The notes under the pieces: model-generated | Database searches by the model: none | What the model saw: only the letters and a program-made list of their open reading frames with translations | What the model was told of the DNA's origin: nothing | Source: Pseudomonadota bacterium | Lineage (GTDB): Bacteria; Pseudomonadota; Gammaproteobacteria; Burkholderiales; Burkholderiaceae_C | Direction of reading: 5' to 3' | DNA: 64,000 nt | Assembly (NCBI GenBank): GCA_021808525.1 | Contig: JAKBBK010000006.1 | Span: 17,477-81,476 of the forward strand | Translations under genes and position numbers: made by a program | Shown: positions 37,889-41,148 of the stretch, piece after piece | Layout of the letters: each line of letters opens with the position of its first letter | Numbering within the stretch: position 1 is the first letter of the stretch

Positions 37889-38800
37889 TCAACCCACGCT
37901 GTCCAGCCAGGCCAGCGGGCGCCGCGCCGGGGCGGGAGGCTCGCAGGGTTCGGGATCGAAAGCCTTGTCGCCGTCGGGGTCGGGAAGCCCCCGCGCGCGC
38001 AGATCGGCGAAGCCGAAGGCCTCGCGGTCGAGCAGATGGGAAGGCACGACCCGGCCCAGCGCGCCGAACATCGACTCCAGGCGTCCGGGGTACTGGCGCT
38101 CCCAGTCCCGCAGCAAGGCGGCGACCTGCTTGCGCTGCAACTGTTCCTGGCTGCCGCACAGCGTGCAGGGAATGATGGGGAAACCCCGATGCTCGGCCCA
38201 GCGGGCCAGGTCGGCCTCCTCGACGTAGGCCAGGGGACGGATGACCACGTGGCGCCCGTCGTCGCTCACCAGCTTCGGCGGCATGGCCTTGAGCTTGCCG
38301 CCGAAGAACAGGTTGAGCAGGAAGGTCTGCAGGATGTCGTCGCGGTGATGCCCCAGCGCGATGCGGGTCGCGCCCAGTTCGCTGGCCACGCGGTACAGGA
38401 TGCCGCGCCGCAGGCGCGAGCACAGGCTGCACAGGGTGGCGCCCTCCGGAACCACCCGCTTGACCACCGAATAGGTGTCCTGCTGCTCGATGTGAAAGGG
38501 CACGCCGCGGCCGGCCAGGTACTCGGGAAGCACGTGCTCGGGAAAGCCGGGCTGCTTCTGATCCAGGTTGACGGCGACGATGTCGAAGTCCACCGGTGCG
38601 CGCTCGCGCAGGCTGAGCAGCAGGTCGAGCAGCACGTGGCTGTCCTTGCCGCCGGACATGCACACCATGACCTTGTCGCCGTCCTGGATCATGCCGAAAT
38701 CGCCGATGGCCTGACCGACCAGGCGATGCAGGCGCTTGGAAAGCTTGTTGATCTCGTGTTCGTGCTTGCGCGGATCCATCGCGGCGCTCCGGTGACTCAT
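37889..38800 (-). CDS. ttcA: tRNA 2-thiocytidine(32) synthetase TtcA
   Basis: Fe-S enzyme of 303 residues that thiolates C32 of some tRNAs using ATP. PP-loop [15 protein letters not shown], the two CxxC pairs that hold the [4Fe-4S] cluster ([11 protein letters not shown] and [10 protein letters not shown]), and [23 protein letters not shown] are all present. The C-terminal 50 residues are a variable acidic/proline tail. ATG 38800 overlaps the folB stop (ATGA); [13 protein letters not shown] at 38779 is an alternative start. It is coupled to folB and the FolM-like gene. Confidence 0.96.
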
Positions 38801-39162
38801 GGGTTGCGCACGCGGTCCTGGGACACCTCGATGCCCACGCCGTCGCAATCGGGAAAGATGTTCGGCTTGTCCACGCGCACCCGCACGCGGCGCACGCCCT
38901 CGAGGCCCAGCACCCGCTGCGCGATGCGCCCGGCCAGGGTCTCCAGCATGTTCACGTGGCCGTGGCCGACCTCCTCCAGCGCGATCGAGCGCAGCAGCCG
39001 GTAGTCCAGCACGTGGGCCACGTCGTCGGCGACCGGCAGGGAGGGCGCGTCGGGCAGTTCCGCGGCGATGGACACCAGCAGAAGCTGGCGCGAGCGCAGT
39101 TCGTGTTCGAGGATCCCCACGCTGGCCTGCACACGCAGGCGTTCGAGGTACAAGGTACGCAT
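38797..39162 (-). CDS. folB: dihydroneopterin aldolase
   Basis: Folate-pathway enzyme of 121 residues that splits 7,8-dihydroneopterin to hydroxymethyl-dihydropterin. The N-terminal [17 protein letters not shown], the middle [11 protein letters not shown], and [13 protein letters not shown] with the catalytic-site glutamate are typical, and the C-terminal [16 protein letters not shown] matches. It sits two bases after the FolM-like SDR gene and overlaps ttcA, so the three are one transcription unit. Together with nudB nearby this gives two folate-branch enzymes in the window. Confidence 0.93.
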
Positions 39163-39164
39163 GG

Positions 39165-39902
39165 TCAGAAGGAGAAATCGCGAGACCGCGCCTGCGGGTG
39201 CTGGCCGGCGTCCACCAGGAGTTCACAGCCGCTCATCGCGGGATTGCGCAGCGCGAACAGCACGGCATCGGCGATGTCCTCGGCACGCGTCCCCTGGCCC
39301 ATGCCGGGAGCCACCGCCACCACGCGCAACTGGGGTGCCAGCGCCTGCGCCAGCAGGGTATGGGCCTCGCGCAGGGCCGCCTTGCTCAGGGTGCAGGAAA
39401 AATGCCCGGGATCGGGGTTCCCAGGCTCGTGGTCCAGCAGGTTGACCACGCAACCTCGCCGCCTCCGGGCCAGCAGTTCGGCATGCAAGGCCTGTGCCAG
39501 CAGCACCGGCGCGATGGTGTTGACGCGGTAGTGCAGCAGCGCGCAATCGCCCCCGAAACCGGCGGCCGAGTCGTATTCGAGCAGGCAGGCGTTGTTCACC
39601 ACCGCGTCCACCCGGCCGAGCAGGCGCGCCACGCTCGGCACCAGCTCGCGGGCGGAAGCTTCGTCGGCGAGATCGGCGCGCAGGCCTTCGGCGCGCGCAC
39701 CCAGCTCGCGCAGTTGCGCGCACAGCGCCTCGACCTCGTCGGGCGAGCCGTGGTCATGCACCGCGACATCCCAGCCCGCCTCGGCCAGCCGGGTCGCCAC
39801 GGCCCGGCCGATGCGCCGCCCCGCGCCGGTGACCAGGGCCACGGCCCGCTGCGCGGCCGGCTCGCCGGCTGCGCCTGCGCGGCGGGATGGAACTTCGGGC
39901 AT
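39165..39902 (-). CDS. FolM/pteridine-reductase-like SDR with catalytic Tyr replaced by Cys
   Basis: Short-chain dehydrogenase/reductase of 245 residues. The cofactor loop [13 protein letters not shown] (TGxGRRxG, NADPH type as in pteridine reductases) and NNACLLEYD are intact. The catalytic YxxxK should lie in [11 protein letters not shown]174 is present, but position 170 is Cys (codon TGC, 39393-39395), where relatives read YTLSK. One base change (TAC to TGC) explains it. The enzyme may be inactive, altered, or used as a binding protein. It precedes folB by two bases, which supports a pterin-linked role. Confidence 0.85.
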
Positions 39903-39914
39903 GGGCGGCGAACC

Positions 39915-39920
39915 TACAAT
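39915..39920 (+). promoter_or_regulatory. -10 box of the MidA-like gene (leaderless)
   Basis: Perfect-type TACAAT ending eight bases before ATG 39928, so transcription would begin at or next to the start codon. No ribosome site fits in this space. Confidence 0.5.
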
Positions 39921-39927
39921 CGCATCA

Positions 39928-41148
39928 ATGGATCCAAGGCGTAGTCTACCCCGCGAACCCGCGGCGGCGCCGGCCGCACAGGCCGCGCGCGCTGCCGAGC
40001 TGATGGCTGTGCTGCGCCGCGAGATCGCGGCAGCCGGAGGCTGGATCGGCTTCGATCGCTACATGCATCTGGCGCTGTACCACCCCGGCCTGGGCTACTA
40101 CGCGGCTTCCCCCGGCGTGCTCGGGGCCTGGGGCGGCGCCAGCGACTTCATCACCGCCCCCGAACTCTCGCCCTTGTTCGCGGCCACGCTGGCGCGCCAG
40201 CTGGCCGGGCTCGGGGCCTCGATGCGCGTGGACCGCGTGGTCGAGTTCGGCGCGGGCAGCGCGGCACTGGCCTGCGCGCTGCTGCGCGAGCTGGCCGATG
40301 CCGGCGCCTGGCTGCCCGAGGAATACGCCATCGTCGAGGTCTCCGCGGCGATGCGCGAGCGCCAGCGCGCGGCGGTGGCCGAGCTGCCCGGGGAATTGGC
40401 CCGACGCGTGCGCTGGTGGGAACGCCTTCCCGAGCGTTTCGACGCCCTCGTGCTGGGCAATGAAGTGCTGGACGCGATGCCGGTACGCCTGCTGCGCCGC
40501 GAGCAGGCCGGCTGGGTGGAGCGAGGCGTGGGAGTGGACGCCGAGGGCCGGCTGTGCTGGAGCGATCGCCCCTTGCCCCCCGGCTGCACCCTGCGCCCGA
40601 GCCTGCGACAGCTGGCGGTGGGCAGCGTGACCGAATGGCACGAGGCGGCCGAAGGCTTCCTGCGCAGCCTGGGCGCGCACCTGGGGCGGGGCGTGGCACT
40701 GCTGTTCGACTACGGTTTCCCGGCCCGCGAATACGACCATCCGCAACGCTCGGGGGGCACCCTGCGCTGCCATCGCGCGCACCGGGCCCACGACGACCCG
40801 CTGTGGGAGCCGGGACTTTCGGACATCACCGCCCATGTCGACTTCAGTGCCATGGCGCGCGCGGCGCGCGAAGCGGGGATGGACCTGCTGGGCTACACCA
40901 GCCAGGCACGCTTCCTGCTCAACGCCGGACTGCTGGACCTGCTGGGCCCGCGCATGGCCGCCGGGGATGCGGCCTCGCTGCGCCTGGCAGCCGGCGTGCA
41001 GAAGCTGCTGGGCGAGCACGAGATGGGCGAGCTGTTCAAGGTGCTGGCGGTGGGCCGCGGCCTGGAGCAGCCGCTGGCGGCTTTCGCGCAGGGCGACCGC
41101 AGCGCGGCGCTGGAGGACGCGCCGGACGGGGCGTCGCCATGGGCTTGA
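39928..41148 (+). CDS. MidA/NDUFAF7-family SAM-dependent methyltransferase
   Basis: Class I methyltransferase of 406 residues, DUF185/MidA family. The human relative methylates an arginine of complex I subunit NDUFS2; the bacterial target is not known. Motifs: GWIGFDRYMHLALYHPGLGYY, SDFITAPELSPLFAATLA, VVEFGAGSAALACALL (SAM loop), ALVLGNEVLDAMPVR and LLFDYGFPAREYDH. The start follows a TACAAT box so closely that the mRNA appears leaderless. Its end overlaps the DUF2905 gene by ten bases. It is divergent from the FolM-like gene, with only 25 bases between. Confidence 0.92.
   Translation: MDPRRSLPREPAAAPAAQAARAAELMAVLRREIAAAGGWIGFDRYMHLALYHPGLGYYAASPGVLGAWGGASDFITAPELSPLFAATLARQLAGLGASMRVDRVVEFGAGSAALACALLRELADAGAWLPEEYAIVEVSAAMRERQRAAVAELPGELARRVRWWERLPERFDALVLGNEVLDAMPVRLLRREQAGWVERGVGVDAEGRLCWSDRPLPPGCTLRPSLRQLAVGSVTEWHEAAEGFLRSLGAHLGRGVALLFDYGFPAREYDHPQRSGGTLRCHRAHRAHDDPLWEPGLSDITAHVDFSAMARAAREAGMDLLGYTSQARFLLNAGLLDLLGPRMAAGDAASLRLAAGVQKLLGEHEMGELFKVLAVGRGLEQPLAAFAQGDRSAALEDAPDGASPWA

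Follow-up and report, generated by a model that had tools for sequence, protein, structure and literature searches.

Active-site decay in a folB-linked, FolM-like SDR of a Burkholderiales bacterium and in a second, degenerate copy of the same genus

Does a cysteine in the place of the catalytic tyrosine of an annotated FolM-like reductase reflect an error of assembly, an unusual catalyst or an enzyme that has ceased to be one? The question is raised by an open reading frame at positions 39165–39902 (minus strand) of the window, i.e., the whole stretch of 64,000 nucleotides of contig JAKBBK010000006.1 that was analysed. The reading frame and its translation give a catalytically degenerate FolM-like SDR of the PRK09134 type with 245 amino acids, as compared to 261–278 amino acids for the full-length orthologues of the genus. 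The Rossmann-fold SDR domain (PF00106/PF13561) is present (PF00106, 91.4 bits with a cut-off of 26.6), and where classical SDRs require YxxxK the protein reads CxxxK. NCBIfam PRK09134 (NF006597) is the best curated family in profile searches: its equivalog cut-off of 281 bits is exceeded by two intact congeners, L011 (283.3 bits) and L012 (281.9 bits), while the window protein (219.6 bits) and the copy of congener G014 (215.3 bits) both fall below it. Among solved structures, Brucella FolM (PDB 5tgd, 5bt9) was the top sequence match (E 4e-29). A methyltransferase gene in divergent orientation (PF02636) borders the gene on one side, folB (PF02152) and then ttcA on the other, and these three genes flank the SDR in the 14 genomes of the locus comparison; locus and gene tree position make the window SDR an orthologue of the FolM-like SDR that is linked to folB in this genus. 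The dihydroneopterin aldolase gene folB (38797–39162, minus strand; PF02152, 75.3 bits) stays under the TIGR00525 equivalog cut-off (53.8 vs 72.15) though it is strongly conserved within the genus. On the other side, only about 25 nt separate the starts of the SDR and methyltransferase genes (39900–39928), and TACAAT at 39915–39920, near a −10 box, sits 7 nt upstream of the likely methyltransferase ATG at 39928, a position that would suggest a leaderless transcript; the stretch encoded after this ATG looks conserved among close congeners.

Translation and codon alignment placed Cys170, encoded by TGC at 39393–39395 on the minus strand (GCA on the plus strand), at the position of the catalytic Tyr, and Lys174 of the motif is kept (39381–39383, minus strand; translation and alignment). 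The CxxxK reading of the first-pass annotation was thus confirmed, as was its statement that the cofactor loop is intact: TGAGRRIGR is present and contains the GX3RXG NADPH-binding motif of the PTR1/FolM group (39801–39830, minus strand; PMC1971073, PMC1618733), whose TGX3RXG form it matches. The Tyr-to-Cys exchange that it had noted does not stand alone: 13 of 91 invariant positions are broken and 21 residues are deleted. Besides Y170C, the protein carries S106C, F108L, Q158H, K159E, L160P, W161G, N164D, D166G, and L236P. Where QKLWNPNPD is near-invariant, residues 158–166 read HEPGNPDPG (39405–39431, minus strand; alignment and codon alignment); compensating indels in the motif, judged by eye, offered no clear advantage over plain substitutions. 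Moreover, an in-frame deletion of 63 nt after VAPGM, seen in the codon alignment, removes 21 residues of the β6-α6 substrate loop and leaves a Met201/Gly202 junction at 39297–39302 (minus strand). The reading frame contains neither a stop nor a frameshift.

In PTR1, the Asp-Tyr-Lys triad positions the nicotinamide and transfers a proton to the substrate, Ser95 touches the pteridine, and the site is lined by Phe97 and bordered by the β6-α6 loop (PMC1618733). By motif and spacing, rather than by direct alignment to PTR1, these elements would map to D157, Y170, K174, S106, F108 and the deleted loop. Asp157 (39432–39434, minus strand), aligned with the putative equivalent of the catalytic Asp161 of T. 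brucei PTR1, is kept together with Lys174, and Cys-Leu-Leu at residues 106–108 (39579–39587, minus strand; alignment) replaces the Ser-x-Phe that appears to correspond to the pterin-site Ser and Phe. Cys170 is real in the assembly but a symptom: the pterin site was lost as a whole. With the Tyr, the Phe and Ser equivalents and the substrate loop all gone, the earlier suggestion that pterin reduction was lost is borne out at the level of the predicted site, and the protein is most likely inactive. The AlphaFold2 model of the window SDR is a confident Rossmann fold (pLDDT 86.8, pTM 0.85), for which Foldseek matched SDRs, FolM and PTR1 at a TM-score of about 0.8, and it lacks the helix 210–218 that follows strand 192–199 in the model of an intact orthologue. 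Retention of NADPH binding is plausible, as GX3RXG is kept and the modelled Rossmann fold is confident.

The collection holds 27 congeners of the window genome (28 genus genomes with it), in 25 of which SDR orthologues were found (26 of 28 counting the window), those of G016 and G005 being interrupted by contig ends. No SDR orthologue was recovered from G006 and G007; absence of the gene is not concluded, because the folB match of G006 is partial and G007, without a folB match, is 82% complete. In the alignment, 24 same-genus orthologues have Tyr at the position of Cys170, with the codons TAC, TAC and TAT in the nearest relatives G021, G025, and G013, and the intact ones read LDQKLWNPNPDHxSYTLSKAAL or a near form, with VAPG followed by a substrate loop of about 20 residues. 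At the level of the family, a pattern scan detected the Tyr-form motif in 270 of 401 genomes. The Cys-form pattern matched 80 of the 401, mostly by chance, given that a reversed control pattern also matches, and none of the four matches reading [S/T]CTL[S/T]K elsewhere than in the window proved to be an SDR. Homologues at E≤1e-22 were present in 55 of 80 Tyr-pattern-negative genomes, about 50 further pattern-negative genomes lying outside this count, and all of the best 48 of these 55 homologues (48/48) have Tyr and Lys with minor motif variants. The remaining 25 of the 80 had no homologue at this threshold and several of them are nearly complete, which indicates that the FolM-like gene is dispensable in the family, where it was probably lost repeatedly. 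Nearly complete family genomes without a close FolM-like homologue include G041, G056, G061, G138, and G154. Two congeners encode, elsewhere in their genomes, an extra relative with 42% identity to the window SDR: L038 (G017:C256:2818-3432) and L039 (G002:C6:140001-140603).

The changes are in excess and they are specific to this gene. When invariants were defined from 22 full-length intact congeners, the window copy broke 13 and the G014 copy 15 of the 91 positions, as compared to 0–1 in the other congeners except one with five; in the 14-genome set the numbers were 25 and 27 of 138 vs 0–3 elsewhere. The neighbours in the window genome are almost untouched (folB 0/85, methyltransferase 2/208, ttcA 0/201), their dN/dS on the window branch is 0.03–0.06, and the nucleotide length of this branch is 0.100 for the SDR vs 0.035 for the three neighbours together. 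The process of change is confined to the SDR gene, which argues against poor local sequence quality. A sequencing or assembly error at 39394 within an otherwise normal enzyme, as the first-pass annotation had also envisaged, would need a single A-to-G change to turn Tyr into Cys, and the source genome is indeed a draft in 144 contigs with 90% completeness. However, one wrong base leaves unexplained the twelve other invariants that this gene breaks and its 63-nt deletion, next to normal contig neighbours, and the unrelated assembly of G014 has the same kind of change, so that an error is extremely improbable. Apart from these two copies, L033 (G024:C104) has Tyr and Lys but breaks five invariants, namely A136T, N162T and A187G as well as two positions of the loop that follows VAPG, and may represent the same decay at an early stage.

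A Cys shared with close relatives, as the annotation had asked, was found in one of them, G014, but the copy of this species is itself degenerate. Its folB-linked SDR (L020/L102 at G014:C71:110117-110917) has an open frame, reads LDPKPRSPNPDHLSCTLSRAAL and VSGVFAPGS, and differs from the window copy in having no loop deletion and in extra changes that include K174R, N104H, P199G, and G200V. Seven broken positions are common to both copies, with a chance of 0.0004 if all invariants are equally likely to break, and at four of them, F108L, L160P, Y170C and L236P, the change is identical. In the SDR tree the window copy groups with G021, G025, and G013, while that of G014 joins G018 and G022 (99% support), with intact lineages between them. 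A common origin of both decayed copies by recombination was rejected: the motif DNA identity of the window genome (G000) and G014 is 71%, no higher than that of either to intact relatives. Taken from the tree and alignments, the loss most likely occurred twice, separately in the two species.

Codon models with separate ratios for the window and G014 branches gave whole-gene dN/dS values of 0.234 and 0.212 with a background of 0.149. Both are below 1 (p=1e-5 and p=3e-8, respectively) and neither differs significantly from the background (p=0.14 and p=0.18). By contrast, in the region of residues 154–176 the ratio rose from 0.003 in the background to 0.135 in the window (p=0.003) and 0.109 in G014 (p=0.004). 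Furthermore, AT>GC changes at codon positions 1+2 were 38:20 on the two decayed branches vs 12:21 on sister branches (p=0.009), a shift that is expected if constraint is released in a genome with 90% GC at third positions.

We regard it as probable that a FolM-like dihydropterin reductase lost catalysis here through relaxed selection and that its frame was kept, probably, by coupling to folB. The account starts from the directly observed substitutions, deletion and excess, their restriction to one gene, the fact that the two cases are independent, and the presence of FolA and ThyA. The ancestral gene would have encoded a dihydropterin reductase of the FolM-like, NADPH-dependent kind; in the window species its catalysis would have ceased to be under selection, and the pterin site would then have decayed, the acid Tyr becoming Cys, the pterin-site Phe and Ser being replaced, the QKLWNPNPD loop altered and the substrate loop deleted, to leave a product that should be incapable of pterin reduction. 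The frame would have stayed open since the fold was constrained during much of the lineage and, probably, since ribosomes coming from the SDR frame aid the translation of folB by termination-reinitiation at TGA-CC-ATG, and a second species of the genus would have undergone the same loss separately. Absent activity, folB coupling and the reason for dispensability are the parts that we infer. What counts against decay is the dN/dS of the window branch, which lies significantly below 1, so that the gene was not neutral for the whole branch, and likewise the lack of any stop or frameshift. The gene may be a young pseudogene or a retained pseudoenzyme.

The same ratios on both branches would fit a selected pseudoenzyme, one that no longer reduces pterins but is maintained for NADPH binding or for a structural role, e.g., in partnership with FolB or with a further SDR. 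The confident Rossmann model with its likeness to solved SDRs, the retained GX3RXG and the identical parallel changes in two species point in this direction, and so does the distribution of broken invariants, which number 1/25 (window) and 0/25 (G014) within the first 100 residues as compared to 12/66 and 15/66 in the remainder (exact P=0.0007 for the sparing of the N-terminal part). However, under a codon-weighted neutral expectation in the 14-genome set the sparing of the N-terminal half is not significant (P=0.12), and sparing of the NADPH half was thus rejected as proof of a pseudoenzyme; low dN/dS could predate the loss, and the four identical changes require one transition each at sites freed by the same functional loss. 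A selected pseudoenzyme is therefore rather unlikely, and it is distinctly doubtful that a FolM-like reductase twice became a non-catalytic NADPH-binding protein for the folB-coupled folate branch by losing F108, L160, Y170 and L236 with the cofactor half kept. Very unlikely, too, is continued catalysis with Cys170 in the role of general acid/base, as the annotation had proposed, or on a new substrate. Two members of the triad, Asp157 and Lys174, are kept, Cys is ionisable near neutral pH and the same Cys occurs in two species, but the rest of the substrate site is missing from the window protein, which has lost the DQKLW loop, the substrate loop and both the Ser and the Phe of the pterin site. 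In G014 the catalytic Lys has become Arg as well, and no gene-wide dN/dS above 1 was obtained, though the motif changes fast. Literature searches on SDR pseudoenzymes found none, and those on Tyr-to-Cys SDRs nothing relevant.

Relaxed selection on the reductase agrees with the folate context: 27 of the 28 genus genomes have folA and all 28 have thyA, the window genome having both, whereas phhA is limited to 4 of 28, the window genome not among them. With FolA and ThyA encoded and no PhhA, the loss looks tolerable. In the window genome and in G014 no SDR passes the pteridine or dihydromonapterin reductase cut-offs, which the intact congeners fail as well. Elsewhere, FolM has been tied to tetrahydromonapterin and not to folate reduction (PMC5587915, PMC5705918, PMC1971073). 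As to folB, the SDR-folB junction TGA-CC-ATG leaves a gap of 2 nt in the window as well as in G014, and in the junction check of 14 genomes neither showed a Shine-Dalgarno-like sequence upstream of folB; termination-reinitiation can work at such spacings (PMC10666635). Some relatives in this set have longer spacers, likewise without Shine-Dalgarno-like sequence, which suggests that coupling is not the only translation route of folB.

Taken together, this looks like the loss of an enzyme on a small scale and not like a new catalyst. A near-ubiquitous gene of the genus that carries a reductase annotation can twice lose its catalytic function with the frame kept, and annotation by family name alone would give the window SDR a very unlikely activity. 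The role of FolM-like proteins in such bacteria is still poorly understood (PMC5587915), and with their intact sister species the two losses provide a small natural experiment on FolM-like function in bacteria with FolA and mostly without PhhA. Comparison with characterized systems underlines what is gone. Brucella FolM (5tgd, 5bt9) resembles the window SDR in fold, in GX3RXG and in the motif region up to FSxTLSK, but has Tyr and a full substrate loop where the window SDR has Cys and a 21-residue gap. Similarly, trypanosomatid PTR1 (T. brucei 2x9v, 3jq8) shares the fold, GX3RXG and the Asp and Lys of the triad, whereas its Tyr, the equivalents of its Ser95 and Phe97 and its β6-α6 loop are gone from the window protein. 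Another member of the Burkholderiales, Burkholderia pseudomallei, remains viable with loss-of-function alleles of folM (PMC5587915), and there FolM function is likewise lost with folA kept (PMC5587915, PMC5705918). Contrarily, those alleles are recent point or frameshift changes in a folE-linked folM (PMC5587915, PMC5705918), whereas the loss in the window, for which no link to drugs is claimed, is old, in frame and folB-linked.
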